Below, one piece after another: positions 8,102 to 48,041 of a DNA stretch of 64,000 nucleotides; position 1 is the first letter of the stretch; the number at the start of each line of letters is the position of its first letter. A program made the position numbers and the translations under genes. The notes below the pieces were generated by a model. The model was not told the DNA's origin, did no database searches, and saw only the letters and a program-made list of their open reading frames with translations. The stretch comes from a virus: positions 1 to 64,000 of the IMG/VR virus record IMGVR_UViG_3300043803_001357; one strand, 5' to 3'.

Positions 8102-9061
8102 ATGCCTATTATCGACGATATCTATTTGGAAAAGTTTGGAAAATTAACAATTATTATTACGGATGAAGGTGTGTTTAAAACCATCAATGATTCATCGGTT
8201 AATTATGAGTTTATAATAACAATACGAAGTTTAGATTCCAATCTTATTTCACATATTATGTATCACCACTGTACAGTGGGGCATGATATGTGGACCTATA
8301 ATTATAACATTTTTTATATAAAAGAAATTTTAAATAAAAATCATCCTGGCATTTGCATAGAAATACACGATGTAGACAATACATTATTATTCAGTAAAAA
8401 TTATCACGGTACTAAAAAATTTAGATGTTTGGATTTAAAATCTAAACAAGGTGATACAACCTATCCATCTTACCATACATTTTTCTACGATGATTATTTT
8501 ACATCAAATTTTAATATCAAAGATGGAGATGTTGTTTATGATCTGGGAGCTAATATTGGTGCGTTTTCTATTGCGTGTTCTAATTTTGATATCAAACAAA
8601 TATATGCATTTGAACCACATCCAGAACTCTCACAGTATCTTAACGATAATTTGAACAGATATGGTAAAAACACAAAAGTGTTTAATAATGCGATTTCAAG
8701 TGAATTTAAAAAAGTAAGATTTGGTACCACAGAATCTACAGTTGCTTCCAGAATTAGAAACGAAGGTGAATTTGAAGTTGATGCTATTAATTTAGAAAAG
8801 TTTGTAATAGATAATAATTTGGAATTGCCAACTTATTTAAAAATTGATATAGAAGGAGCTGAATATGAGTTTTTTGAAAATACAAGTGACAATTTCTTCA
8901 AAAATGTTAGAAGTATATTCTTTGAATTTCATTGCAATGACGGCGTAAATCTACTTAAAATAATTGATAGATTTAAGAATTTAGGATACAAGTTAAGTCA
9001 CAAAGATAATGCCTTGGATCATAATCTATCACATATGAACACCGTATACTTAAATAAGTAA
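8102..9061 (+). CDS. FkbM-family SAM-dependent methyltransferase
   Basis: Residues ~140-260 contain the FkbM methyltransferase core: SAM-binding VYDLGANIGAF (~145-155), FEPHP at 170-174, and LKIDIEGAEYEFFE (~247-260). FkbM enzymes commonly O-methylate sugars or polyketides. The first ~130 residues form an unassigned N-terminal domain. It starts one base after the recombination gene and is followed three bases later by a glycosyltransferase, so it probably methylates a glycan made by its neighbours. The substrate cannot be read from sequence. Confidence 0.8.
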   Translation: MPIIDDIYLEKFGKLTIIITDEGVFKTINDSSVNYEFIITIRSLDSNLISHIMYHHCTVGHDMWTYNYNIFYIKEILNKNHPGICIEIHDVDNTLLFSKNYHGTKKFRCLDLKSKQGDTTYPSYHTFFYDDYFTSNFNIKDGDVVYDLGANIGAFSIACSNFDIKQIYAFEPHPELSQYLNDNLNRYGKNTKVFNNAISSEFKKVRFGTTESTVASRIRNEGEFEVDAINLEKFVIDNNLELPTYLKIDIEGAEYEFFENTSDNFFKNVRSIFFEFHCNDGVNLLKIIDRFKNLGYKLSHKDNALDHNLSHMNTVYLNK

Positions 9062-9064
9062 ATT

Positions 9065-11077
9065 ATGAAAAAAATATTGTTTATAGCTCCACATCTTTCT
9101 ACTGGAGGACTACCTCAATTTTTATTGAAAAAAATACAATCGTTAATTAATGATTATGAAATATATTGTGTAGAATATGATGATATTACTGGTGGAGTTT
9201 TAGTTGTTCAAAGAAAGCAGCTTCAGAAAATTTGCGGTAAGAGGTTTTACACATTATCATCAAATAAATTTGAGTTACTAAAGTTAGTTGACAATATAAA
9301 ACCTGACATTATTCATTTGGAGGAAATGCCAGAATACTTTATGGATGTTAACTTGGCTACTAAACTCTATAATAAAGACCGAGAATATCTAATTGTGGAA
9401 ACTTCGCACGATAGTAGTTTTGATCCAAGAAGAAAGCGTGTTTTTCCAGATAAATTTACATTCGTAAGTAATTATCAGAAACAAAACGTCGAATCTTTAG
9501 GCATAAATACTACAGTTATTGAATATCCAATTTCTGTGAAGTGTAGAAAAGATAGATCTGAAGGATTGAAATTTTTGGGATTGGATGAAAGTAAAAAACA
9601 CGTATTACACGTTGGATTGTTTACTCCTAGAAAAAACCAAAAAGAATTTATAGAATATGCTCGTGCAATGGAAAAAGAACATATTCAATTTCATTGTCTG
9701 GGTAATATGGCTGATAACTTCAAAAATTATTGGCAACCTCTGTTGGATAATTTACCGAGTAATGTAAAAGTTTGGGGTGAACGCAAAGATGTAGAAAACT
9801 TCTACAGTTGTATGGATTTGTTTTTGTTCACTAGCAGAGGTCACGCAACTGATAAAGAGACAGCACCTATTGTAATTAAAGAGGCTATATCTTATAATAT
9901 ACCATCTCTATTGTACAATTTGCCTGTTTACCTTGATAGATACAAGGTATTTGAAAATATCAAGTATCTAGACGAAACCAATTTTAATCGTAATGTTAAA
10001 CTCATAAAGAATCAATTGGGGATGATTTCAGATTCTGAAATAGAGATTGTTAATATAAAGAAAACTGCAAATAAAAACACGGTGGTTATCATATCAACAC
10101 ATCCCAATTTTAAAGCTGTAGAAGACACAACTTTGGAATCAATTAATCAAGCTAAAAAAGCTGGTTATAAAGTGTTGTTGTCATCTCATTATCCTGCTAG
10201 TGTTGATTTGCAAAAAGCGGCTGATCATTATGTATATGACTCAAACAATCCAATTTTAAAACATAATTTCTATAATAGATGGACATACAACACAGATAAT
10301 ACCAAGATCAATTTATTTTTTCCACCTTCCGATTGTGATAATTATCACGGTCTTGCTGTATTATTAAACTATTACAATGGCATATCATTGGCAAATAAAA
10401 TCGGATACAAAAATGCAATTTGCTTCAATTATGATATGGTCATTTCAGAATCAGATTTTTCAAAGTTATACGATGTAGATGAAATTCTAATTAATAAGAA
10501 AGCATTTTTCTTTTATGATAAGGCCTTAGAAGGTGACACATTCAAAACAGTATTTCACGGAATTAATACTCAATTTTTCTTGGATAATTTTGATTACTAT
10601 ACGCCAGAAGAATATATGGAATTTGTTACCAAGAAAAATATATCAAATGGATTGGAACAATTCTATTATAATAAACTAATATCTAATAAGAGCGATCTTC
10701 ATATAGATTATACAAACAACGAAGAATCTTATTTAAGCAATAGTAAAAATAATTTATTCTCAATGGTAGAATATCTATCGGTTCTGAGGATGAAGAATAT
10801 AAATAAGTTTGGAGTATTAACATACATCAATAATAAATTAGATGGTCGTATAAATGAGATAATAATAAAAAAGAACGGAGAGGTAGTTAACAATTATTCT
10901 TACACGGTATCAGAAAAGGTTTGTTTTTATTTAGCAAACGAGTTTGAAAACAATAATTTCTATGAAATTGAAAATAATCTATATGATCAAAATAAAATTT
11001 TATTGAGAAGTTATAAAAAGTCATTTAGAAGATTGGAAGACATAGATATTAACGGTTCTATTGATATTACACAATGA
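9065..11077 (+). CDS. Two-domain glycosyltransferase, GT4-like N-terminus
   Basis: The N-terminal half (~1-325) resembles GT4 family, GT-B fold glycosyltransferases: FIAPHLSTGGLPQFLL near the start, then LHVGLFTPRKNQKEF and, near 265-285, a KETAPIVIKEAISYNIP segment corresponding to the nucleotide-sugar binding EX7E region. Residues ~338-600 form a second domain starting VVIISTHPNF and containing CFNYDMVISE, which could be a GT-A-like transferase, but I am less sure. It overlaps the next gene by ATGA. The arrangement suggests a multi-step glycan assembly cassette acting on a phage or host component. Confidence 0.7.
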   Translation: MKKILFIAPHLSTGGLPQFLLKKIQSLINDYEIYCVEYDDITGGVLVVQRKQLQKICGKRFYTLSSNKFELLKLVDNIKPDIIHLEEMPEYFMDVNLATKLYNKDREYLIVETSHDSSFDPRRKRVFPDKFTFVSNYQKQNVESLGINTTVIEYPISVKCRKDRSEGLKFLGLDESKKHVLHVGLFTPRKNQKEFIEYARAMEKEHIQFHCLGNMADNFKNYWQPLLDNLPSNVKVWGERKDVENFYSCMDLFLFTSRGHATDKETAPIVIKEAISYNIPSLLYNLPVYLDRYKVFENIKYLDETNFNRNVKLIKNQLGMISDSEIEIVNIKKTANKNTVVIISTHPNFKAVEDTTLESINQAKKAGYKVLLSSHYPASVDLQKAADHYVYDSNNPILKHNFYNRWTYNTDNTKINLFFPPSDCDNYHGLAVLLNYYNGISLANKIGYKNAICFNYDMVISESDFSKLYDVDEILINKKAFFFYDKALEGDTFKTVFHGINTQFFLDNFDYYTPEEYMEFVTKKNISNGLEQFYYNKLISNKSDLHIDYTNNEESYLSNSKNNLFSMVEYLSVLRMKNINKFGVLTYINNKLDGRINEIIIKKNGEVVNNYSYTVSEKVCFYLANEFENNNFYEIENNLYDQNKILLRSYKKSFRRLEDIDINGSIDITQ

Positions 11078-31246: not shown

Positions 31247-31990
31247 ATGAAAAGTGGTATATACAAAATTACAAATGTTAAGAATGGCAAGTTTTATATT
31301 GGTTCTGCTAAAGATATTGATCGTCGTTGGTGGGAACATAAAAATGATTTAAAAAAGAATAAACATAAGAATCCTAAATTACAACACGCTTGGGATTTTT
31401 ACGGGGAAAACAGTTTTGAATTTATTATATTAGAAAATGTAATAGAATGTGAATTGTTTAAACGAGAACAATTTTATTTAGATATGTTTAAACCCTATAT
31501 GCGTGATATAGGTTATAATATTACCCCAACCGCAAGTGGAGGCGATAATTTTACACATAATCCTGATAAAGAAGAAACTCGTCAGTTACTATCTGATATT
31601 AATCTAGGAGCTAAAAATCCTATGCACGGTAAAAAGCATAGTGATGAGGCTAAAGAAAGGCAACGTGATCGTGCTGTAGGACGTTATACTTTGGAGTGGT
31701 TTGTTGACAAGTATGGTATTGACAGTGGTACACTTAAGTACAAGGAGAGAAATGACAAATTGGCTAATCGTAATATTAATTACAGTTATGATAATGGATT
31801 AAAAGGCAAAAAGCGTGGTGCTATGAGTGATGAAATGAAACGTAAGATTAGTGAACAAAAGAGAAATTTTGCGCTTAGAAAGAATGAATTTGTTGATGAT
31901 TTAAAGAGTGGTAGTTTTACTAACAATGCATTAAGTGAGAAGTATGGAGTATCATTAACCACGATCAAATTACATAAAAGAAAATATTAG
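31247..31990 (+). CDS. GIY-YIG homing endonuclease
   Basis: A free-standing mobile endonuclease. The N-terminal GIY-YIG domain shows GIY at residues 4-6, YIG at 17-19, Arg27 and a catalytic-type Glu74 (KREQFYLD). Two NUMOD3-like DNA-binding segments follow (NPMHGKKHSDEAKERQ and GAMSDEMKRKISEQ), and the C-terminus (ALSEKYGVSLTTIKLHKRK) looks like a helix-turn-helix. It sits between the capsid terminator and the minus-strand island with its own sigma70-like promoter, as expected for an element inserted next to a conserved gene. It probably cuts related phage genomes lacking it to spread by recombination. Confidence 0.88.
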   Translation: MKSGIYKITNVKNGKFYIGSAKDIDRRWWEHKNDLKKNKHKNPKLQHAWDFYGENSFEFIILENVIECELFKREQFYLDMFKPYMRDIGYNITPTASGGDNFTHNPDKEETRQLLSDINLGAKNPMHGKKHSDEAKERQRDRAVGRYTLEWFVDKYGIDSGTLKYKERNDKLANRNINYSYDNGLKGKKRGAMSDEMKRKISEQKRNFALRKNEFVDDLKSGSFTNNALSEKYGVSLTTIKLHKRKY

Positions 31991-32245: not shown

Positions 32246-33019
32246 TTATTCGAAAAATTCGTTGGTAGATGTTACAACGATTTCTTGTACTTCTTCTTTG
32301 AACGAAGTATCTTTGGGGTAAGGTAGAACTTTATGTTTAAGAGATTTAGTCAACTTTTTATTTTCTATTTTGTTACTGATAAACTTGATATAACGATGTT
32401 TACCACTTTCTCGTTTGCGCCAGAATGTTCTACCAATACGTTCTTTTAGTTTATCTACGCTGTGTGTTTTCCATCTTGAATATACACTTCTGCTGTGTAT
32501 CCAATCATAGTTAGGAGGACCAACTAAACTAACACTATAGTTAGGCATTATAGCGATATCTACATAGTTATCGCCTTGATATAGAAAGCCAGTTGCTTGA
32601 TAGATTGTGCCTGCGTGTCCAGCTTCACTATCCGCATAACTGAGAATACATTTGATGTGGGGATATTCAGTATTTAATAATCTAAAGCTTTCAGCTATAC
32701 AATAACTTTCTATATTTTTACCATAACCATCTGCAATCCACAGTCGTGTTAATTCTAACACATTGTTATTAGTAAGTAGTGAAGAGATACTGGTACTAGC
32801 ATTTCTACCCACGGCGTTTCCATATACTAATACACCTATTAATCGTTCGTTAAAACCACCAAAGAATGTACTCTCTACATATTCTTTATAGTATACTCCA
32901 TAAGCTACAGTACAAAGAGACCACTTGTGTGTATAATGATTCTTTTCAATAAGAGTTTTTGCAACATTCTTATTGATGCTTTTGATGTAAATTAATGTGG
33001 GGTCAAAATACTCCGACAT
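32246..33019 (-). CDS. Mom-like DNA modification protein (GNAT-fold)
   Basis: The 257-residue protein resembles the phage Mu Mom family: N-terminal IEKNHYTHKWS, then VLELTRLWIADGYGKNIESY, then SYADSEAGHAGTIYQATGF. Mom-type proteins have a GNAT-like fold and convert adenine in DNA to an N6-carbamoylmethyl form, protecting phage DNA from restriction enzymes. The C-terminal ~90 residues are basic and could contact DNA. It has its own sigma70-like promoter ending six bases before the ATG, suggesting early expression. A generic acetyltransferase is the alternative. Confidence 0.72.
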   Translation of the reverse strand: MSEYFDPTLIYIKSINKNVAKTLIEKNHYTHKWSLCTVAYGVYYKEYVESTFFGGFNERLIGVLVYGNAVGRNASTSISSLLTNNNVLELTRLWIADGYGKNIESYCIAESFRLLNTEYPHIKCILSYADSEAGHAGTIYQATGFLYQGDNYVDIAIMPNYSVSLVGPPNYDWIHSRSVYSRWKTHSVDKLKERIGRTFWRKRESGKHRYIKFISNKIENKKLTKSLKHKVLPYPKDTSFKEEVQEIVVTSTNEFFE

Positions 33020-33056: not shown

Positions 33057-33269
33057 TTATATTATATAAAAAAGACCTTTGGAATTATATACTACAGTTC
33101 TAATTTTGGTAGCATTAATCTTATTGATACCAAGTCTATCTATTACTTGAAATGGATCAGGGTGATTATTTATAGGAGCTGCCATAACTCTATCCTTTAT
33201 TTTGTATACATCCAAGTCTGTATTAACAATACTTGGATGATATTGTCTTACTAAAGGCATTGTTCTCAT
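33057..33269 (-). CDS. Hypothetical protein, 70 aa
   Basis: A short protein starting MRTMPLVRQYHPSIVNTD, with no membrane segment or known motif. Its ATG overlaps the stop of the ankyrin-cyclase gene (ATGA), so it is likely translated by coupling and belongs to that operon. It ends just before the promoter of the Mom-like gene. Confidence 0.5.
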   Translation of the reverse strand: MRTMPLVRQYHPSIVNTDLDVYKIKDRVMAAPINNHPDPFQVIDRLGINKINATKIRTVVYNSKGLFYII

Positions 33270-35041
33270 ACTGGTTTATTTGTTGTTGGTTCTGCTTTCT
33301 TTACTCTACTAGATGGAAATGATTTGTTACCAAAATCACTACCGTGTAAACTATACAAATGCATAACTACACCGTGTTTTACAACCACATCCCCCAAGTC
33401 ATTTACTAATACATATGGTGGTCTATCATATTTTAACATTACTGCTGAACTAACCAACAAATGATTGCTTTCACCTGCATCCATTACTCTTTGAGCATAG
33501 TTGATACCATCACCACTGATATTGAGATTGCCATTAATATCTTCCATTGGTATTACAGGTCCACAATGTACACCCATTCTCATTTGTAAATCCGGTCTAT
33601 CCTTTACTGCTTTAGCTATAGTAACTGCACAATTCATTGCATCTTCCAAATAAGTAAAGAATCCCAATACCATACCGTCACCAGTAGGTAATATAATTAA
33701 CTTTTCAAGCGCATTAGCTGTTTTGTATTGCATTGTAGACTTAACCAATGCACCCAAATCTTTACAAGCCTTCTTTTGTTCATCTGTTGTTTTCTTACTA
33801 TAAGCAACAATATCCATAAAGAATATATAACCTTCTTGTTCTACGTCCAATTGCAATCTACCAGATTTGACTTCTACATCAACTTGTTCAACTTTCTTGA
33901 CAACTTGTTTGACGGGTTTAACAACTTCTACCTTCTTTTCTTCTTTCTTTTCTACCACTGGAATATCTTTAAGTTTCAAGAAATCTTTCCAGTTAATTTT
34001 CTTAGCTGGTGCATCTTTTTTCTTTGGTTCTTTTGATGCTTGTTCTTCTTCGTGTTTCTTTATTGCAGCTTCTTCACGATTACGTTTTTCAACAAACAAT
34101 GCAATTTGCTTTTTAACTTCATCTGTGATGTATATGTTTACATCTTTTCCACCACCACCAATATCGTGTTTCTTTTTTCTTTGAGCACCTTTGGATTGCA
34201 GATATGTTTGCATTTCTACATTACCCGTCTTAAATGCCAAATCCAACGGAGCAATTTCACCTTTGAAATCTGCACCGTTAACATTCGCACCCAAATGTAC
34301 CAAAAATTCCACCATATCAACATCGTTAGCGTTAACGGCATAATGTAGTGGCATCCATCCATTCTTTTCATCTCTGCCATTGATTTTACCATCTTTATCA
34401 AAGAACGATTGTACACCTTCAAAATCTCCTGTTTCTGCGCAGAAATGAATACTAACACCTCCTGCGGATTTAGCACCGTACTTATTCAATAACTTAACAA
34501 TGTCACCTCTATTGGTATTGGATAGTACGTCAATAGGATTATTTTTACCCAAGAAATCTTTCTTGTTAACATCAGCTCCTCTTACAATTAGATATTCAAC
34601 CAAGTGTTTTTGTCCGTAATTTACTGCATAATGTAGTGCGGTCCAACCTTTGCCAGCGTCAACTTCATTGATATCAAATCCCTTGTCTAACATTTCTTCA
34701 ATAGAAACGATATCACCATTTTTTGCGGCTAAATGGAAACTACTACCGCTACTGTATTTTGCACCTCTTTGTTGTAGTATTTCTGCGATATTTTTAAAAC
34801 CTTTTTGTTCAGCTACATCCAGTGCTGTATTTTTACTGGTCCAATCTTTACAGTTGGGATCTGCACCGTGATTTAACAGTAGTTTTACGATTTCCACTTG
34901 ATTTTCTTCTACAGCAACAACCAATGGTGGATTGCCTGTATCATCGTCTCTTTGATTGACATCTACTTTTTCTTTTTCGATACAGTTGTAGACGTTATCG
35001 TATAACCCACGTTTGATGTGGGTAAAAATGTTAATAGCCAT
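33266..35041 (-). CDS. Ankyrin-repeat protein fused to class III nucleotide cyclase domain
   Basis: Residues ~30-290 form about seven to eight ankyrin repeats (e.g. GWTALHYAVNYGQKHLVEYL, GWMPLHYAVNANDVDMVEFL). A charged Lys/Glu/Val linker (~300-400) leads to a class III cyclase domain at 403-565. Catalytic residues are in place: metal-binding Asp410 (FMDIVAYS) and Asp455 (PTGDG), and Asn514 plus Arg518 (INYAQR) for ribose and transition-state contacts. The lysine expected before TGDG in adenylate cyclases is replaced (LPTGDG), so the base used is uncertain. The ankyrins may sense a host or phage protein. The operon continues from the MscS-like gene 15 bases upstream. Confidence 0.85.
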   Translation of the reverse strand: MAINIFTHIKRGLYDNVYNCIEKEKVDVNQRDDDTGNPPLVVAVEENQVEIVKLLLNHGADPNCKDWTSKNTALDVAEQKGFKNIAEILQQRGAKYSSGSSFHLAAKNGDIVSIEEMLDKGFDINEVDAGKGWTALHYAVNYGQKHLVEYLIVRGADVNKKDFLGKNNPIDVLSNTNRGDIVKLLNKYGAKSAGGVSIHFCAETGDFEGVQSFFDKDGKINGRDEKNGWMPLHYAVNANDVDMVEFLVHLGANVNGADFKGEIAPLDLAFKTGNVEMQTYLQSKGAQRKKKHDIGGGGKDVNIYITDEVKKQIALFVEKRNREEAAIKKHEEEQASKEPKKKDAPAKKINWKDFLKLKDIPVVEKKEEKKVEVVKPVKQVVKKVEQVDVEVKSGRLQLDVEQEGYIFFMDIVAYSKKTTDEQKKACKDLGALVKSTMQYKTANALEKLIILPTGDGMVLGFFTYLEDAMNCAVTIAKAVKDRPDLQMRMGVHCGPVIPMEDINGNLNISGDGINYAQRVMDAGESNHLLVSSAVMLKYDRPPYVLVNDLGDVVVKHGVVMHLYSLHGSDFGNKSFPSSRVKKAEPTTNKPV

Positions 35042-35056
35042 AGTTTAATTAGTAAA

Positions 35057-35464
35057 TTAGTCTTTTTTGAAACGGCTTAAATCCAATTGAGGTAGTGGTT
35101 TTTCTATGTTTAGACCAGCTAGTCTTTCATTTTGGATAACTAATTTACTTCCGCCTACAACCTTACCATCTACTACGTCATATATGAAAAATACAGTTTT
35201 TGTAAGTCCCACACGAACAATTCTGCCGGGTTTGCCATCAATATATACAACATCATCTTCTTTGTAATCGGACCCAATAAACATAAACAGTGCCGCGGCA
35301 AGTTTTTCAATGCTTGATTTAAACATTAGAATTACTAATCCCGCTACGAACATCCAGACATATTTGCCTGTCATATCTTGTGCGGTTGATTCTAGTACCT
35401 GTTGAGATATTACGTGTGCTGTATTTGTATCCATAATCGTCTTTAGTTTATTAACACATAACAT
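35057..35464 (-). CDS. Small MscS-domain-like membrane protein
   Basis: A hydrophobic helix (YVWMFVAGLVILMF, then AAALFMFIG) leads into a short beta domain: EDDVVYIDGKPGRIVRVGLT followed by KLVIQNERL. This order matches the pore helix and beta domain of MscS-type mechanosensitive channels (GDxVxIxGxxGxVxxIGLRxT and PNxxL), but the protein is only 135 residues and lacks the other parts. The product could also start at ATG 35434. It lies directly upstream of the cyclase gene on the same strand. It may act as a membrane channel or as an effector; this is inference. Confidence 0.55.
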   Translation of the reverse strand: MLCVNKLKTIMDTNTAHVISQQVLESTAQDMTGKYVWMFVAGLVILMFKSSIEKLAAALFMFIGSDYKEDDVVYIDGKPGRIVRVGLTKTVFFIYDVVDGKVVGGSKLVIQNERLAGLNIEKPLPQLDLSRFKKD

Positions 35465-35509: not shown

Positions 35510-36475
35510 TTATTTAATCCACTTTTGTTCTTTTAGAATATCATCAATCAATTCTTTTTCGGAACTATCCATTTCTTTATCAAATCTTTTCAATACTTCA
35601 GTCAATGGATATACTCTATCAGGAGATTCTTTTTGTTTTTCTTTTAGTTCTTGAATTACATCAACTATTTTAACAAGTGGAGACTTGAATTCATCAACTT
35701 TGTCTTTTGAAGCGAAGTTAGCCAATTCAAATGCATGTGGAGTTAATGCTTTTACCAAACTTAGTAATCCAGAACCAATCATATTAAATATACTAAATGC
35801 TGCACCAGCTGCTGGATGTACTGTTGCTAATATTCTTAATATAACAAATACCACAACAAATATGATAATTGCGGTCATTGCACTAACAAAGAACTTTTTT
35901 AAACCCCAAAATACAGCATTAAGACCAAACATACCACTCATAGCATCCAAAGTAGCCTTGCTTTGATCAGCTTCTTTTGCAATTTCTTTTGCTTTATCAG
36001 TCATTTGCCATAATTCATCGTCATACTTTTCTTTCAAAGCAGACTTTTCTTTTTGCAATTTGTTTATGATTTCGTCACGTTGTGATAGTAATTGATCACC
36101 CTTTTTTCTTTCCTCAGCAACTTGACTGTTTAATAAATCAACGGTAGCTTTTATACGTTTAATTTCATCTATGTGTGGTGATCCAACTATAGAAATTACA
36201 CGTTCATTGAGTGATTTAGCAGTATCTACTTGTACTGACGGGTTTGTTACTTGACTTAAAGAGTGTTGAATACCTATAGACAAAGACGATGCTTGTACAC
36301 GTTTGCCTTTTTCTACTTTTTCCAACTCTACCATCGTATTATCTACTTTGGCTTCTTGTTTAGCAACAGCGTCTTGTGCAGTTGTAACTTGCTTCGCCGG
36401 TCTAACTTCAGACGAAATACAACCGGTTAGTATTAAAATTACGATGGTGTAAAACAGTTGTTTTTTAAAGTTCAT
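35510..36475 (-). CDS. Coiled-coil lipoprotein with internal membrane segment
   Basis: The N-terminus FYTIVILILTGCISS has a basic start, a hydrophobic core and a lipobox (LTGC, Cys19), indicating export and lipidation. Residues ~20-185 are a coiled coil. A strong hydrophobic segment (MTAIIIFVVVFVILRILATV) near 205-225 is followed by another hydrophobic region and a charged tail. Placement both as lipoprotein and as transmembrane protein suggests an envelope-spanning or inner-membrane organiser. Phage lipoproteins often block superinfection or help lysis; neither is shown here. A same-strand ATATTTAT lies five bases before the ATG. Confidence 0.65.
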   Translation of the reverse strand: MNFKKQLFYTIVILILTGCISSEVRPAKQVTTAQDAVAKQEAKVDNTMVELEKVEKGKRVQASSLSIGIQHSLSQVTNPSVQVDTAKSLNERVISIVGSPHIDEIKRIKATVDLLNSQVAEERKKGDQLLSQRDEIINKLQKEKSALKEKYDDELWQMTDKAKEIAKEADQSKATLDAMSGMFGLNAVFWGLKKFFVSAMTAIIIFVVVFVILRILATVHPAAGAAFSIFNMIGSGLLSLVKALTPHAFELANFASKDKVDEFKSPLVKIVDVIQELKEKQKESPDRVYPLTEVLKRFDKEMDSSEKELIDDILKEQKWIK

Positions 36476-36520: not shown

Positions 36521-37129
36521 ATGATCAAACTTAATGACTTAATAGAGAACGATTCGTTGTGTCCGATGGCACATCCTAAGAACATAGAACCAGTGATGAG
36601 TTCTTATTTACGTTATCATATTGACAATAAAATTCCACTTAGCGAAAACATTTTTAGAACCTATAGTGAGTCTTATTTTGATTTAATCGAAGAAGTTCGT
36701 ACTTTGTATTTTCAAAATTTAATAGAATTGTGTGACGCTGACGCTGAATTGGTTGAAAGTGATTTGGGTAAAAAGGCTATATTTGAAGGTAGAGAAGTGT
36801 ATTTGGATGCGCCTATCGAAGACGAAGAAGATTTATTGATGGAACTTAAGCATAGAGGACGCACTGTTAATTTAAGTAGACCATTTAGAACACCCGGCGG
36901 TCCTAAAAAATATGCTGTATATGTTAAATCTAAGAATGGCAAAGTTAAAAAAGTAACATTTGGAGATCCAAATATGAGAAGCAGAGCTAGTAGCAAGGCT
37001 CGTCGTAAGAGTTTTGCAGCTAGACACAGATGTAGTCAAAAGAAAGATAGAACAACGGCTGGATATTGGAGTTGCAGAAGTCATAGAATGAAATCGTTGG
37101 GTAATAAAGGTAAAGGTAAATACTGGTAA
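36521..37129 (+). CDS. Basic protein with targeting-like N-terminus
   Basis: Starts MIKLNDLIENDSLCPMAHP, the shared tag followed by an MAHP phrase also found in the ligase-like gene at 18875. The acidic middle leads to a very basic C-terminal domain (KKYAVYVKSKNGKVKKVTFG, then ARRKSFAARHRCSQ and YWSCRSH), a conserved-looking module that I recall from marine phage proteins, possibly the DUF5872 type, not verified. The basic domain could bind nucleic acid. The stop overlaps the next ATG (TAATG). A packaged DNA-associated protein is inferred. Confidence 0.65.
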   Translation: MIKLNDLIENDSLCPMAHPKNIEPVMSSYLRYHIDNKIPLSENIFRTYSESYFDLIEEVRTLYFQNLIELCDADAELVESDLGKKAIFEGREVYLDAPIEDEEDLLMELKHRGRTVNLSRPFRTPGGPKKYAVYVKSKNGKVKKVTFGDPNMRSRASSKARRKSFAARHRCSQKKDRTTAGYWSCRSHRMKSLGNKGKGKYW

Positions 37130-42032: not shown

Positions 42033-45000
42033 ATGTCAACATTAAAGAAAGATCCATGCGAGGTTTCTCCAATAAAATTGGATAATGCTCTGTATGATTA
42101 TAAAAAATTAACAGCGACTTTTAAAGATCCTACCACAGAGCTGTTTCTTAAAATAATCGACGAATTACGTAAAATTATTTATTGTCGAACCAGTTCTCAG
42201 TTTTTCAACAATGTTGCTACTAAACAAATACCATGCGATCAAAAATCAAAAACTTGGGTATTTGATCATAATTTAAACTCAGATCTAGTATTAATTCAAA
42301 CATACGACGAGAATTTCAATCAATTAATACCAGAAACAATAGTACTCAATAATGATAATACCGCAACCATAACTTTTTCGTTTGATGCATGCGGATACAT
42401 CATAGGTGTAAGCGGTAATATCAGCACCAGTGGTACTTCAGGCACAGGCACCAGTGGTAGTAGTGGTAGTAGCGGAGAAAAAGGATCAGCTGGATCAAGC
42501 GGAACAAGCAATACAAGCGGCACAAGCGGTACAAGCACATCTTCAGGTACCAGTGGTAGTCAAGGCACAAGCGGTACAAATGGTGAGGGTGGTAGTAGCG
42601 GTCAAAGTGGCGATATAGGAACCAGTGGAACTAGTGGAGAAAATGGAAGCAGTGGTACAAGCGGTAGTAGTGGTTTATTAGATGGATCAAGCGGATCAAG
42701 TGGTACAAGTACTACAAGCGGTACAACCGGCACAAGTGGCACAAGAGGATCAAGCGGTAGATCAGGCACCAGTGGAAGCAGCGGAACAAGTGGTAGTAGC
42801 GGAACAAGTGGTACTAGTGGTACAAGTGGTACCAGTGGTACAAGTGGCACAAACGGTACTAGTGGTAGCAGTGGCACCAGTGGTACAAGCGGATCTAGTG
42901 GCACAAGTGGTACAAATGGATCAAGTGGTACAAGTGGTAGCAGCGGATCAAGTGGTACAAGTGGATCAAGTGGTACAAGTGGTACAAGCGGATCTAGTGG
43001 CACCAGTGGTACTAGTGGTACGAGTGGTACCAGTGGGTCAAGTGGATCGAGCGGATCTAGTGGCACAAGTGGCACATCTGGTATAAGTGGAAGCAGTGGT
43101 TCAAACGGCACAAGCGGCACAAATGGCACCAGTGGCACAAGTGGTACTAGTGGAACAAGTGGTACAAGTGGTACAAGCGGTACAAGTGGATCATCTGGTA
43201 ATAGTGGATCATCCGGTAGTAATGGGACAAATGGCACCAGTGGTACAAGCGGCACAAGTGGTACAAGCGGTACTAGTGGTACAAGCGGAACAAGTGGTAC
43301 AAGTGGTACAAGCGGTACAAGCGGTACTAGTGGATCAAGTGGATCAAGTGGGTCAAGTGGATCAAATGGTACAAACGGCACTAATGGTACAAATGGCACT
43401 AGTGGTACAAGCGGCACTAGCGGTACAAGTGGTACCAGTGGTACAAGTGGATCAAGTGGGTCAAGTGGGTCAAGTGGGTCAAGTGGATCAAGTGGATCTA
43501 ATGGAACAAATGGTACCAGTGGTACAAATGGTACCAGTGGTACTAGCGGAACAAGTGGTACAAGCGGTACTAGCGGATCAAGTGGTTCAAGTGGTTCAAG
43601 TGGGTTAAGTGGTTCAAGTGGTTCATCTGGTACTAGCGGATCGTCTGGCAGTAGCGGAACAAGTGGATCTAATGGCACAAACGGCACAAGTGGTACTAGC
43701 GGCACAAGTGGTACTAGCGGCACAAGTGGTACTAGCGGCACAAGTGGATCAAGTGGATCAAGTGGTACTAGTGGATCAAATGGTACAAGCGGATCTAACG
43801 GCACAAATGGCACAAGTGGATCAAATGGTACAAGTGGAACGAGTGGTACAAGCGGTACAAGTGGTAGTAGTGGAACAAGTGGTACAAGTGGTAGTAGTGG
43901 AACAAGTGGATCAAATGGCACAAGTGGTACTAGCGGATCAAACGGCACAAGTGGATCTAATGGCACAAGTGGTACTAGTGGTACAAGCGGTACTAGTGGT
44001 ACAAGCGGTACTAGTGGATCGAGTGGATCAAGTGGATCAAGTGGATTAAGCGGTTCAAGTGGATCATCTGGTACTAGCGGATCAAGTGGATCATCTGGTA
44101 CCAGCGGATCCAATGGAACGAATGGAACAAGTGGATCGTCCGGTACTAGCGGATCAAGTGGATCGTCTGGTACTAGCGGATCAAGTGGATCATCCGGTAC
44201 AAGTGGATCTAATGGAACAAGTGGTACTAGCGGATCTAACGGTACCAGTGGTAGCAGTGGCACAAGTGGTACAAGCGGATCAAGTGGTACTAGCGGTACA
44301 AGTGGATCAAGTGGATCAAGTGGTTCAAGTGGTTCAAGCGGATCAAGTGGCAGTAGTGGTACTAGTGGATCAAACGGTACTAGTGGTACAAGCGGTACAA
44401 ACGGTACTAGTGGTTCAAGTGGTTCAAGTGGATTAAGTGGATCAAGTGGATCATCTGGTACAAGCGGATCAAGCGGTAGTAGTGGATCATCTGGTACAAG
44501 CGGATCTAATGGTACAAGCGGTAGTAGTGGATCAAATGGTACCAGTGGCACAAGTGGCACAAGTGGTACAAGTGGATCTAATGGTACAAGCGGTAGTAGT
44601 GGCACAAGCGGTAGTAGTGGATCATCTGGAACAAGTGGATCTAATGGCACAAGCGGTACAAGTGGTAGCAGTGGATCTTCTGGTATAAGTGGTAGTAGTG
44701 GAACGAGTGGCACAAGCGGTAGTAGTGGAACAAGTGGTAGTAGTGGATCAAATGGCACAAGCGGATCAAATGGTACTAATGGTACTAACGGTACTAACGG
44801 TACAAGTGGTACATCTGGTAGTAGTGGAACAAGTGGTACTAGTGGAACAAGTGGATCATCTGGAACAAGCGGATCTAATGGTACAAGTGGAACAAGTGGG
44901 TCAAACGGTACAAGCGGTAGTAGTGGAACAAGCGGTACTAGTGGTACTAGTGGCACAAGTGGTACTAGTGGCACAAGTGGTACTAGTGGATCATCTGGTA

Positions 45001-48000
45001 TAAGTGGAACAAGCGGATCAAACGGCACAAGTGGTACAAGCGGATCAAACGGCACAAGTGGTACAAGCGGTACTAGTGGCACAAGTGGTACAAGCGGTAC
45101 TAGTGGCACAAGCGGTACAAGTGGTAGTAGTGGATCAAGTGGTACTAGTGGATCAAATGGCACAAGCGGCACAAGCGGCACTAGTGGTACTAGTGGTACG
45201 AGCGGATCTAATGGCACAAGCGGTACTAGTGGAACAAGTGGATCTAATGGCACAAGTGGTACAAGCGGCACAAGTGGTACAAGTGGGTCAAGTGGATCAA
45301 ATGGTACAAGTGGGTCAAGTGGATCAAGCGGTACAAGTGGGTCAAATGGATCAAGCGGTACAAGTGGATCTAATGGCACAAGTGGCACAAGTGGTAGTAG
45401 TGGATCTTCTGGTATAAGTGGCAGCAGTGGTACAAATGGAACAAGCGGCACCAGTGGCGTAAGTGAATCAAGTGGATCAAGTGGAAGCAGTGGTACTAGT
45501 GGCACAAGTGGATCCAACGGTACAAGTGGCAGTAGTGGTACAAGTGGTACAAGTGGTAGTAGTGGTACAAGTGGATCAAATGGAAGCAGTGGCACAAGTG
45601 GAAGCAGTGGTACTAGTGGCACAAGTGGATCTAACGGTACAAGTGGTACTAGTGGTACTAGTGGTACTAGTGGTACAAGCGGTACTAGTGGTAGTAGCGG
45701 ATCGTCTGGTATAAGTGGGTCAAGTGGATCAAGTGGCACAAGTGGTACAAGCGGATCGAACGGCACCAGTGGGTCAAGTGGATCAAGTGGATCAAGTGGC
45801 ACAAGCGGATCAAGTGGATCAAGTGGTACAAGCGGATCTAACGGTACAAGCGGATCTAACGGTACAAGTGGCACAAGTGGATCCAACGGTACAAGTGGTA
45901 GTAGCGGATCGTCTGGTATAAGTGGTAGCAGTGGAACAAACGGCACCAGTGGTACAAGTGGCACAAGTGGTATAAGCGGATCAAACGGTACAAGTGGTAG
46001 TAGCGGATCGTCTGGTACTAGCGGATCAAGTGGATCTAACGGTACAAGTGGTACAAATGGTACTAGTGGCACAAGCGGTACAAGTGGATCTAATGGTACC
46101 AGTGGTAGCAGTGGCACAAGTGGTACAAGCGGATCAAGTGGTACTAGTGGCACAAGCGGAACAAGTGGAACAAGCGGCAGTAATGGATCAAGTGGCACAA
46201 GTGGTATAAGTGGGTCAAATGGTACTAGTGGCACAAGCGGTACTAGTGGTAGTAGCGGATCGTCTGGTGTAAGTGGATCAAGTGGATCAAGTGGGTCAAG
46301 TGGGTCAAGTGGATCAAGTGGGTCAAGTGGATCAAGTGGTACAAGTGGATCAAGTGGGTCAAATGGTACTAGTGGCACAAGCGGAACAAGTGGATCAAGT
46401 GGGAGCAGTGGTACCAGTGGCACTAGTGGTACGAGTGGATCAAATGGTACCAGTGGAACGAGTGGAACAAGTGGTATAAGTGGGTCAAATGGTACAAATG
46501 GTACTAGTGGCACAAGTGGAACAAGTGGATCAAGTGGTAGCAGTGGTACTAATGGTACTAGTGGTACAAGTGGTATAAGCGGATCAAATGGCACCAGTGG
46601 AACAAGCGGAACAAGTGGTACCAGTGGTACTAGTGGTAGCAGTGGTACAAGCGGATTTAGTCGTGATAGTGGTAGCAGTGGTAATAGTGCCACAAGTGGT
46701 AGTAGTGGTACAAGTGGTAGTAGCGGTACAAGTGGAACAAGTGGTAGCAGTGGTCAAAACGGAACAAGCGGAACAAATGGAACGAGTGGCACTAGCGGAA
46801 CAAGTGGAACTAGTGGTAGCAGTGGTAGCAGTGGTATTAGTGGTAGCAGTGGTAGAAATGGAACCAGTGGTACAAGTGGCACAAGCGGAACAAGCGGAAC
46901 AAGTGGTACTAGTGGTAGCAGTGGTACAAGCGGATTTAGTCGTGATAGTGGTAGCAGCGGTAATAGTGCCACAAGTGGTAGTAGTGGTACAAGTGGTAGT
47001 AGCGGTACAAGTGGAACAAGTGGTAGCAGCGGTCAAAACGGAACAAGCGGTACTAGTGGCACAAGCGGAACCAGTGGTAGTAGTGGTAGTAGTGGTAGCA
47101 GTGGTACAAGTGGTACAAGTGGTACGAGTGGTCGAAATGGAACCAGTGGTACAAGTGGTACAAGCGGAACCAGTGGTACAAGTGGAAGTAGTGGTACAAG
47201 CGGATTTAGTCGTGATAGTGGTAGCAGCGGTAATAGTGCCACAAGTGGTAGTAGTGGTACAAGTGGTAGTAGTGGAACGAGCGGCACAAGTGGTAGTAGC
47301 GGTCAAAACGGAACAAGTGGAACAAACGGAACAAGTGGCACAAGTGGAACGAGCGGAACAAGTGGTAGCAGTGGCACAAGTGGTCGAAATGGAACCAGTG
47401 GAACAAGTGGTAGCAGTGGTACGAGTGGCACAAGCGGAACGAGTGGTAGTAGTGGTACTGTTGGTACAAGTGGAACAAGTGGTGTAAGTGCTGGTGGAGG
47501 TGCTAGTGCTAGTAGTGGAAGTAGTGGTATAAGTGGAACTAGTGGTAGCAGTGGTACGAGTGGCACTAGTGGTATTAGTGCTCCTAGTGGTACCAGTGGA
47601 ATTAGTGGTGGTAGTTTTACTGATCAGCCTAATTATTTGGTAAAAACTACTGGTCTTACTACGTTACAGAGTGTTAATTTTTTAAGTGTGGATGGTACTA
47701 CATTAACAGTTGTTGGAACTGTTAGTGCTACTACATTGATAGAAACGTCTAGTGAAAATACTAAAACGGATATTATGCCTTTATTGCCGCCGCAATTGGA
47801 CAAGATTGTGTTATTGAATCCGGTGACATTTAGGTATAAGAACAACAATGAATTTAGTATTGGTTTGATAGCTGAAGAGGTTGTGAAGATATATCCTGAA
47901 TTTGTTAGTTATGATGAGTTGGGTAATATATCTGGTATAAATTATAGTAAATTGACAGCTGTATTGATACAGGGTGTTAAAGAATTGAAGCAGATAGTTG

Positions 48001-48041
48001 ATGAACAACAAATAACAATAAATCGATTGATAAATAAATAA
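42033..48041 (+). CDS. Giant Gly-Ser-Thr collagen-like fibre with S74 chaperone domain
   Basis: The 2002-residue product has an N-terminal attachment domain (~1-127), about 1730 residues of G-x-y triplets (GTS, GSS, GNG, GIS) and a C-terminal folding domain. Proline is almost absent and Ser/Thr/Asn fill x and y. The C-terminus (from ~1900) is a peptidase S74 intramolecular chaperone: Ser1906 and Lys1911 have the +5 spacing of its self-cleavage dyad, followed by LNPVTFRYKNNNEFSIGLIA and AVLIQGVKELK. It would trimerise the fibre, then cut itself off. Many N-G-T/S sites and serines make it a possible glycosylation target. Ten bases separate it from the next fibre gene. Confidence 0.88.
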   Translation: MSTLKKDPCEVSPIKLDNALYDYKKLTATFKDPTTELFLKIIDELRKIIYCRTSSQFFNNVATKQIPCDQKSKTWVFDHNLNSDLVLIQTYDENFNQLIPETIVLNNDNTATITFSFDACGYIIGVSGNISTSGTSGTGTSGSSGSSGEKGSAGSSGTSNTSGTSGTSTSSGTSGSQGTSGTNGEGGSSGQSGDIGTSGTSGENGSSGTSGSSGLLDGSSGSSGTSTTSGTTGTSGTRGSSGRSGTSGSSGTSGSSGTSGTSGTSGTSGTSGTNGTSGSSGTSGTSGSSGTSGTNGSSGTSGSSGSSGTSGSSGTSGTSGSSGTSGTSGTSGTSGSSGSSGSSGTSGTSGISGSSGSNGTSGTNGTSGTSGTSGTSGTSGTSGTSGSSGNSGSSGSNGTNGTSGTSGTSGTSGTSGTSGTSGTSGTSGTSGTSGSSGSSGSSGSNGTNGTNGTNGTSGTSGTSGTSGTSGTSGSSGSSGSSGSSGSSGSNGTNGTSGTNGTSGTSGTSGTSGTSGSSGSSGSSGLSGSSGSSGTSGSSGSSGTSGSNGTNGTSGTSGTSGTSGTSGTSGTSGSSGSSGTSGSNGTSGSNGTNGTSGSNGTSGTSGTSGTSGSSGTSGTSGSSGTSGSNGTSGTSGSNGTSGSNGTSGTSGTSGTSGTSGTSGSSGSSGSSGLSGSSGSSGTSGSSGSSGTSGSNGTNGTSGSSGTSGSSGSSGTSGSSGSSGTSGSNGTSGTSGSNGTSGSSGTSGTSGSSGTSGTSGSSGSSGSSGSSGSSGSSGTSGSNGTSGTSGTNGTSGSSGSSGLSGSSGSSGTSGSSGSSGSSGTSGSNGTSGSSGSNGTSGTSGTSGTSGSNGTSGSSGTSGSSGSSGTSGSNGTSGTSGSSGSSGISGSSGTSGTSGSSGTSGSSGSNGTSGSNGTNGTNGTNGTSGTSGSSGTSGTSGTSGSSGTSGSNGTSGTSGSNGTSGSSGTSGTSGTSGTSGTSGTSGTSGSSGISGTSGSNGTSGTSGSNGTSGTSGTSGTSGTSGTSGTSGTSGSSGSSGTSGSNGTSGTSGTSGTSGTSGSNGTSGTSGTSGSNGTSGTSGTSGTSGSSGSNGTSGSSGSSGTSGSNGSSGTSGSNGTSGTSGSSGSSGISGSSGTNGTSGTSGVSESSGSSGSSGTSGTSGSNGTSGSSGTSGTSGSSGTSGSNGSSGTSGSSGTSGTSGSNGTSGTSGTSGTSGTSGTSGSSGSSGISGSSGSSGTSGTSGSNGTSGSSGSSGSSGTSGSSGSSGTSGSNGTSGSNGTSGTSGSNGTSGSSGSSGISGSSGTNGTSGTSGTSGISGSNGTSGSSGSSGTSGSSGSNGTSGTNGTSGTSGTSGSNGTSGSSGTSGTSGSSGTSGTSGTSGTSGSNGSSGTSGISGSNGTSGTSGTSGSSGSSGVSGSSGSSGSSGSSGSSGSSGSSGTSGSSGSNGTSGTSGTSGSSGSSGTSGTSGTSGSNGTSGTSGTSGISGSNGTNGTSGTSGTSGSSGSSGTNGTSGTSGISGSNGTSGTSGTSGTSGTSGSSGTSGFSRDSGSSGNSATSGSSGTSGSSGTSGTSGSSGQNGTSGTNGTSGTSGTSGTSGSSGSSGISGSSGRNGTSGTSGTSGTSGTSGTSGSSGTSGFSRDSGSSGNSATSGSSGTSGSSGTSGTSGSSGQNGTSGTSGTSGTSGSSGSSGSSGTSGTSGTSGRNGTSGTSGTSGTSGTSGSSGTSGFSRDSGSSGNSATSGSSGTSGSSGTSGTSGSSGQNGTSGTNGTSGTSGTSGTSGSSGTSGRNGTSGTSGSSGTSGTSGTSGSSGTVGTSGTSGVSAGGGASASSGSSGISGTSGSSGTSGTSGISAPSGTSGISGGSFTDQPNYLVKTTGLTTLQSVNFLSVDGTTLTVVGTVSATTLIETSSENTKTDIMPLLPPQLDKIVLLNPVTFRYKNNNEFSIGLIAEEVVKIYPEFVSYDELGNISGINYSKLTAVLIQGVKELKQIVDEQQITINRLINK
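42420..47610 (+). repeat. Coding tandem repeat, 9-base-type Gly-x-y units
   Basis: About 5.2 kb of degenerate nine-base units such as GGTACAAGT and GGATCAAGT encode the G-T-S and G-S-S triplets. Synonymous variation (AGT/AGC, GGT/GGA/GGC) breaks exact identity, which may limit slippage. Long open frames on the other strand and in the second frame here are side effects of the repeat. Confidence 0.95.
46650..47310 (+). repeat. Three copies of a ~276-base super-repeat
   Basis: A module reading GFSRDSGSSGNSATSG, then ending SSGQNGTSG, occurs three times, starting near 46651, 46928 and 47204. The non-canonical FSRD and NSAT sequences make the copies obvious and indicate recent duplication within the collagen-like region. 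Confidence 0.85.

Follow-up and report, generated by a model that had tools for sequence, protein, structure and literature searches.

Sequence comparison and models suggest a signalling unit in a family of uncultured bacterial viruses

Why would a bacteriophage carry its own nucleotide cyclase, and what would it use it for? The question is raised by an open reading frame (ORF) at 33266..35041, minus strand, of the window, that is, of the 64,000 nucleotides (nt) analysed here (positions 1 to 64,000 of IMG/VR virus record IMGVR_UViG_3300043803_001357, a virus contig of 75,570 bases). The ORF starts with ATG and encodes a fusion of ankyrin repeats with a class III nucleotide cyclase domain (591 amino acids [aa]). 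It is of phage origin, since genes for a Gp23-type capsid, a Gp20-type portal, and a terminase share the window. A first-pass annotation, made from the letters of the window, had singled out this fusion; it stated no strand and overlooked the linked gene of an MscS-like small membrane protein, tm135 (35057..35464, minus strand). Sequence comparison and structural models suggest that the two genes belong to a predicted viral signalling unit, present in a family of uncultured bacterial viruses.

A phage protein joining ankyrin repeats to a class III cyclase domain

The ankyrin region, residues 5-284 (34190..35029, minus strand), matches Pfam Ank_2 (E 2.6e-38) and was modelled by AlphaFold2 (AF2), from a 32-sequence alignment, as nine helix pairs. 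Beyond them, residues 307-337 form a helix, and residues from about 400 to 570 a domain that is well predicted. The model had a mean predicted local distance difference test (pLDDT) of 79.4 and a predicted template modelling score (pTM) of 0.72, with pLDDT below 50 in residues 291-303 and 361-392. The class III cyclase homology domain occupies residues ~399-570 (33332..33847, minus strand). The full-length protein scored 23.2 bits against PF00211 (Guanylate_cyc; E 5.7e-5), above the Pfam cut-off of 21.9, and residues 395-591 scored alone reached 26.2 bits (E 6.9e-6); the match spans residues 478-566 only. Re-alignment of Foldseek matches, and of these only, with VIA-align placed residues 400-567 on solved class III cyclases, the closest being Rv1264 (1y10; Z 19.5, root-mean-square deviation, or rmsd, of 2.5 over 156 residues), followed by Ma1120 and Rv1900c (Z 19.1 each). 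Profile search and structure prediction, the computational checks proposed in the first-pass annotation, have borne out its claim of a phage-encoded ankyrin/class III cyclase fusion with an intact catalytic set. Searching BFVD with the full model returned no cyclase by name in 50 of 386 rows (E ≤0.001), a result that is uninformative on the cyclase domain.

By alignment, the two metal-binding aspartates are D410 (codon 33812..33814) and D455 (33677..33679), the transition-state Asn and Arg are N514 and R518 (33488..33502), and the phosphate-binding Lys position is K555 (33377..33379), all on the minus strand; the annotation's numbering of the first four was exact. The full-length copies of the gene (215, many retrieved more than once from one contig) reduce to 31 distinct coding sequences (CDSs) and 26 distinct proteins. 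These five residues, together with L451, P452, and N507, are invariant in all 31. The median pairwise ratio of nonsynonymous to synonymous substitution (dN/dS), calculated on non-independent pairs, was 0.044 in the cyclase (291 pairs), 0.047 in the ankyrin region (277 pairs), and 0.083 in the linker (202 pairs). With such values in the cyclase and ankyrin parts, the gene and its catalytic residues are under purifying selection and their conservation is not due to chance.

The base pocket is of a different kind from that of canonical adenylate cyclases. Leu451 (codon 33689..33691, minus strand) lies opposite the Lys of 3mr7, at the adenine-selecting lysine position, which the annotation had correctly described as altered, and Asn507 (33521..33523, minus strand) stands at the adenine-selecting aspartate position; the canonical Lys/Asp (or Lys/Thr) pair is replaced by L451/N507. 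The phage protein shares with the class III cyclases Rv1264, Ma1120, Rv1900c, and 3mr7 (PF00211) the fold (Z 18.0-19.5, rmsd 2.2-2.6), the metal aspartates, the Asn/Arg pair, and the phosphate Lys position, whereas it differs from them in these two pocket residues, in its ankyrin N terminus, and in being encoded by a phage.

Is this pocket peculiar to phages? One scan of genome contigs, whose patterns ([VI]LPTGDGM and [LM]GFFTY[LS]E) bias the resulting set, gave 94 relatives, of which the best 80 were used. They comprise two loci that are 91-95% identical (L179 and L180, in metagenome-assembled genomes labelled Verrucomicrobiales and Bacteroidetes, which we presume to be phage pieces), a phage contig binned with Flavobacteriales (L181), and 77 other loci. 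The records of these 77 are labelled Verrucomicrobiota, Nitrososphaerota, and, once each, Acidobacteria and TM6, and they are termed cellular here after these records. Both metal aspartates and the Arg are present in 77/77 cellular rows, as is the phosphate-binding Lys, which is also found in 10/10 phage rows and in 2/2 rows of ac482, a second cyclase described below. The lysine position is L in 76/77 cellular rows and K in the 2/2 ac482 rows, and the aspartate position is N in 74/77 cellular rows. Because L451/N507 is common to these relatives, a phage-specific change of the substrate pocket was rejected, and the altered lysine is a trait extending beyond phages. The transition-state Asn is kept in 19/77 rows (L182-L200). 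In L201-L258, mostly Nitrososphaerota-labelled, it is changed to I, V, or L, with both metal aspartates and the Arg kept; these are possibly non-catalytic cyclase-like domains.

The cellular cyclases of this LPTGDGM type (L182-L258) resemble the phage protein in the L-P-T-G-D-G-M and N507 signatures and, for L182-L200, in N514. They differ from it in that 58 rows have no N514 and in their architecture: all nine cellular proteins scanned with Pfam matched PF00211, accompanied by TPR, by KaiC-type domains, or by nothing further, and none of these nine showed ankyrin repeats. In a tree of 89 rows (10 phage, 77 cellular, and 2 ac482), the phage rows fell together on one side of a branch whose support against the cellular rows was weak (89/62), with long-branch warnings. 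The phage cyclase draws attention to a subfamily of class III enzymes in which the base pocket is L/N and which Verrucomicrobiota- and Nitrososphaerota-labelled genomes also encode. No description of the product of this subfamily was found, in searches that were not dedicated to its cellular members.

Pairing with tm135 and movement between phage lineages

The viral relatives are metagenomic contigs, none of them known to be complete and some of them fragments, which limits the searches for photosystem genes, cyclic-nucleotide-binding domains (CNBDs), and cyclases. A viral scan with tm135 gave 70 loci, and the 65 with at least 400 nt downstream were counted. A class III cyclase lies downstream of tm135 in all 65 (the ankyrin kind only in 57, both kinds in 6, and a membrane-bound kind only in 2), and tm135 and the ankyrin cyclase are separated by 11-31 nt in 59 of 64 loci. 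The cyclase gene is paired with tm135. The gene upstream of tm135 in the window, lp321, occupies that place in 61 of 63 tm135 loci. When lp321 was itself used for a scan (best 80 of 99 relatives, 71 of them with at least 1,500 nt downstream and counted), tm135 and a cyclase were found in 57/71 loci and neither was nearby in 14/71. The whole records of these 14 (4.7 to 230 kb) held no match to PF00211 or tm135 in 13 cases and both in one, L430, where the pair lies elsewhere on the contig. In L420, L444, and L445, lp321 and the Mom-like gene are ~50-70 nt apart, with the pair absent between them. Given the 14 loci with no pair nearby and the arrangement in L430, lp321 was rejected as an obligate third partner.

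What is tm135? Profile comparisons indicate that it is an MscS-like membrane protein, with an MscS-type pore helix and beta-domain. Its homolog in L181 scores 29.3 bits against PF00924 (cut-off 20.2), and 15 of the 16 PDB matches of that homolog are MscS-type channels, all at E 0.042 or weaker. An 11-row tm135 alignment that includes L181, compared by hhalign with eight MscS proteins, reached 94.1% (E 1.3e-7, single template), against 0.7% at most for 20 column-shuffled controls. Several relatives start at an internal ATG, equivalent in the window to a protein of 125 aa (35057-35434). Members of the MscS superfamily, among them the bCNG channels, which are gated by cyclic nucleotides and carry a CNBD, share with tm135 the core of pore helix and beta-domain; unlike them, tm135 has neither the C-terminal MscS domain nor a CNBD.

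The ankyrin cyclase can be replaced by another cyclase. In the two loci with the membrane-bound kind only (L299 and L326), the cyclase is a class III membrane enzyme of 479-482 aa (PF00211 E 6.6e-27 and 5.8e-26); it has a protein of 213-215 aa beside it and is followed by an HD-type protein of 258-259 aa (hd259). This second cyclase, ac482, has Lys and Thr at the base-selecting positions, and it occurs as an extra in 8 of the 63 loci of the first scan, many of them truncated (L023, L025-L029, L052, and L063). Copies followed by the HD-type gene lie at L299:10433-11881, L326:1844-3283, and L112:9235-10671. In the 16/16 loci that carry it, hd259 directly follows a class III cyclase or the small ORF o70 next to it (the second cyclase in 15, the ankyrin cyclase plus o70 in 1). 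Conserved His/HD motifs were seen in six copies; only one copy matches PF01966, below the cut-off (E 0.0074), and hd259 had no PDB match, so that calling it a phosphodiesterase is a guess. PF00211 has a single match in the window's 75.6-kb record, and likewise in ten large relatives (79 to 175 kb). Both the co-occurrence of tm135 with a cyclase and the substitution of one cyclase type by another are arguments that the activity needed would be nucleotide cyclisation.

A second phage lineage also carries the cassette, which has passed from lineage to lineage. A contig of 174,551 bases, G001, carries lp321, tm135, the cyclase, and o70 at 73-82% identity. Queried by tblastn at 1e-5 with 31 window proteins, capsid, portal, and terminase included, it gave two partial matches, of 364 residues (37%, E 7e-60) and 61 residues, and none to the window capsid, portal, or terminase. 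A window gene outside these 31 (36521-37129) has 53-54% matches, covering its C-terminal part, in both G001 and the L181 contig. The terminases of the window, G001, and L181 all reach the broad profile phrog_2, so the three lineages are distant and not proven unrelated. Contig L117 has a window-type backbone (capsid 94% identical), yet its cyclase is closer to the G001 enzyme (93% identity) than to the one in the window (72%), a pattern best read as exchange between lineages. L181 in turn encodes the tm135 homolog and a 516-aa ankyrin cyclase, which shows 34% identity over residues 102-587 and, by tblastn, 55% over 88 residues.

As to the host, the nearest named capsids are those of Microcystis phage Mel-JY01 (49.9%) and Flavobacterium phage immuto (48.5%). 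A Shine-Dalgarno-like motif stands ahead of 5% of 38 genes in the window, 7% of 14 in immuto, and 45% of 20 in Mel-JY01 (16% of 104 in G001 and 26% of 43 in the L181 contig), and no PF00124 (psbA-type) match was found in 14 records, fragments included. We infer that the host of the window phage is more likely a member of the Bacteroidota.

What the pair may do

With moderate confidence, we regard the protein as an active cytoplasmic class III mononucleotide cyclase, an accessory phage gene product that works as a pair with the MscS-like tm135. The ankyrin stack would bind tm135 or some other protein, from the host or the phage, and this binding would control the homodimerisation of the cyclase domain. 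Dimer sites of class III cyclases combine the metal aspartates of one chain with the Asn and Arg of the other; here, two sites might form, each from D410/D455 of one chain and N514/R518 of its partner. The enzyme would then make a 3',5'-cyclic nucleotide during infection, more likely with a purine base, and this signal would act on host receptors, with tm135 linking the module to the membrane, where it might serve as a tether, a sensor, or an output. Since no CNBD was found in 23 phage records, fragments included, the signal would be read by a host protein, or by tm135 through a site of another kind. The unit would most likely serve the control of the host or the exclusion of other phages.

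Several observations weigh against this. The non-canonical base pocket makes both catalysis and product unpredictable, and parts of the subfamily may be non-catalytic, the transition-state Asn being I, V, or L in 58/77 cellular rows. A channel function of tm135 is doubtful, because the protein stops shortly past the beta-domain, without the C-terminal alpha/beta vestibule domain of MscS, because the window copy scores 16.0 bits against PF00924, under the cut-off, and because its model is poor (pLDDT 62, pTM 0.38); VIA-align matches of this model, the best at Z 7.6, mix myosin, CarD, and other folds with MscS relatives and so support the MscS kinship weakly. The L181 cyclase has ankyrin repeats and no PF00211 match by Pfam at E 0.001, and it lies on the strand opposite to its tm135 homolog, ~1.8 kb away. 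The linkage counts are taken mostly from close or near-identical relatives, which are not independent, and the patterns used were specific to tm135, so that distant tm135 genes would be missed. Nor is lp321 part of the core, because 2/63 tm135 loci lack it upstream and it also occurs without the pair.

The first-pass annotation had named cAMP, cGMP, or a pyrimidine cyclic nucleotide of the kind made by Pycsar defence cyclases as candidate products, and any of the three may be formed. Pycsar pairs a class III-type cyclase gene, PycC, with a partner gene, PycTM or PycTIR, of which PycTM encodes a membrane protein. A phage-borne exclusion unit of this sort, in which infection by a second phage activates the cyclase, the cyclic nucleotide acts directly on tm135 to open or oligomerise it, and the damaged membrane barrier stops the intruder, is in our view unlikely. 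Its layout, a cyclase beside a small membrane protein, does resemble PycC with PycTM (PycTM as given in the available text of PMC11224242), and tm135 accompanies even another cyclase type, the pair being present or absent as a unit. The domain PF00027, however, was found in 0/23 phage records, fragments included (positive control, 10/14 genomes), tm135 is truncated relative to MscS, and the PADLOC PycC profile matched weakly (E 0.042, 11 bits) and over 30 residues of the domain only. According to the available text of PMC11224242, PycC clades D and E share F at -2 of Asp 1, and relative to Asp 2 clade E has R (-4) and Q (-2) and clade D has K (-2) and F (+3); these offsets were derived from the residue numbers given there, and clade B (Y50, D94, R97) was not placed. 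L451 (-4), T453 (-2), and V458 (+3) fit neither clade. F408 does fit the Phe two residues before Asp 1, but so does the F of all 77 cellular rows. On the weak profile match, the mostly absent clade D/E residues, and the lack of a CNBD partner in those 23 records, membership in Pycsar was rejected, L451/N507 being common to genome-contig relatives in any case, and the system is kept as a rival mechanism. The phage unit further differs from Pycsar in being encoded by a phage and in its ankyrin fusion.

Could the cyclase be silent, or the signal be meant for something else? A weak or silent cyclase-homology domain serving as a scaffold for nucleotide sensing or dimerisation, with the ankyrin stack as the working part, would account for the non-canonical pocket across relatives and for the loss of the transition-state Asn in most cellular rows. 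We consider it very unlikely, given that the metal aspartates and the catalytic Asn, Arg, and Lys do not vary among the 31 phage CDSs, at the low dN/dS given above, and that replacement by, or company with, a K/T-type cyclase suggests that activity matters. Quite unlikely, too, is an auxiliary gene supplying a host signal and so altering surface or metabolism, a role suggested for the pelagiphage adenylate cyclase of curli clusters, with tm135 merely co-transferred. A precedent exists: the available text of PMC9599517 includes an adenylate cyclase in pelagiphage curli (type VIII secretion system) clusters, and in HTVC008M an annotated adenylate/guanylyl cyclase adjoins curli genes. Moreover, a protein that looks by eye like an outer-membrane barrel adjoins the cyclases in some contigs. 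Against it, tm135 remains linked to a cyclase in different lineages, and to either of two cyclase types, which hitchhiking explains poorly. The HTVC008M cyclase, which like ours is a class III cyclase carried as a phage accessory gene, is 38% identical to ac482 over the catalytic part, and it has curli genes as neighbours whereas the ankyrin cyclase has an MscS-like partner.

These precedents bear on how rare such genes are. The annotation had called nucleotide cyclases rare in phage genomes, which holds for residues 395-591 (at E 0.01, none of 50,697 named phage records matched) and less so for the second cyclase, which matches 11 of those records, or for the published pelagiphage enzyme. Neither residues 395-591 nor tm135, lp321, or hd259 matched INPHARED phages, a set from which near records may be left out. 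Cyclases are unmentioned in the text of PMC7029224 and PMC9004378, and no description of an ankyrin cyclase or of the MscS-like protein in phages was found in open-licence PMC texts among the matches listed. Class III cyclases in phages are already known; the pairing with tm135 is added by the present analysis.

Beyond the favoured reading of an active cyclase paired with tm135, a wider proposal can be put forward only tentatively: a mobile phage signalling module that obligately combines a minimal MscS-type protein with a cyclase slot. An ankyrin-gated cyclase with an unusual base pocket would occupy this slot, and a receptor-type cyclase with a putative HD phosphodiesterase could be added to it or take its place. 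The phage would thereby have its own circuit for writing, reading, and erasing a cyclic nucleotide at the host membrane. Phages are described, in the available text of PMC9117128 and PMC12043709, as cleaving or sequestering the cyclic-nucleotide signals of antiphage systems. A phage lineage that maintains a cyclase of its own alongside one channel-like protein would exemplify the writing of such signals by phages, in a compact two-gene system suited to testing in laboratory bacteria.

Neighbouring and accessory genes

The cyclase gene lies within a minus-strand run, with the Gp23 capsid gene on one side and plus-strand genes from 36521 on the other. The order of transcription is lp321, tm135, cyclase, o70, a Mom-like gene, and an 82-aa ORF. 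The product of lp321 (35510..36475, minus strand) has a lipobox-like start, whose Cys19 is invariant in 8 aligned copies, and, by eye, a coiled-coil-like stretch and hydrophobic segments. We take this layout, with its later membrane segments, to recall one-piece spanins, but the C-terminal tail is long. The 70-aa ORF o70 (33057..33269, minus strand) overlaps the cyclase stop by 4 nt and is found in many, not all, relatives. The Mom-like DNA modification gene (32246..33019, minus strand) matches Pfam Mom at E 1.2e-44.

Other accessory genes vary among the relatives. Of the barrel-like proteins seen beside cyclases in some contigs, the 213-215 aa form had no Pfam match, and a 234-aa form in L118 had a sub-threshold match to OMP_b-brl (E 4e-4). 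Directly 3' of the ankyrin cyclase of L118, one divergent phage, lies the gene of a PAS-domain protein (8613-9212; PAS_9 E 1.3e-7). At L116:5869-6817 and L423:7963-8895, within the cassette or adjoining lp321, a sensor-like membrane protein of 205-206 aa is followed by a small membrane protein of 104-108 aa, which in L116 has a sub-threshold match to YLATT (E 0.0056). In the window, a GIY-YIG homing endonuclease gene (31247-31990), which only some relatives have, comes after the Gp23 capsid gene and adjoins it. Finally, a plus-strand ORF of 2002 aa (42033-48041) has a GC content of 0.47, against roughly 0.29-0.39 elsewhere in the window, with a GC skew of 0.385 in 44-48 kb and an antisense open frame of 1363 aa.

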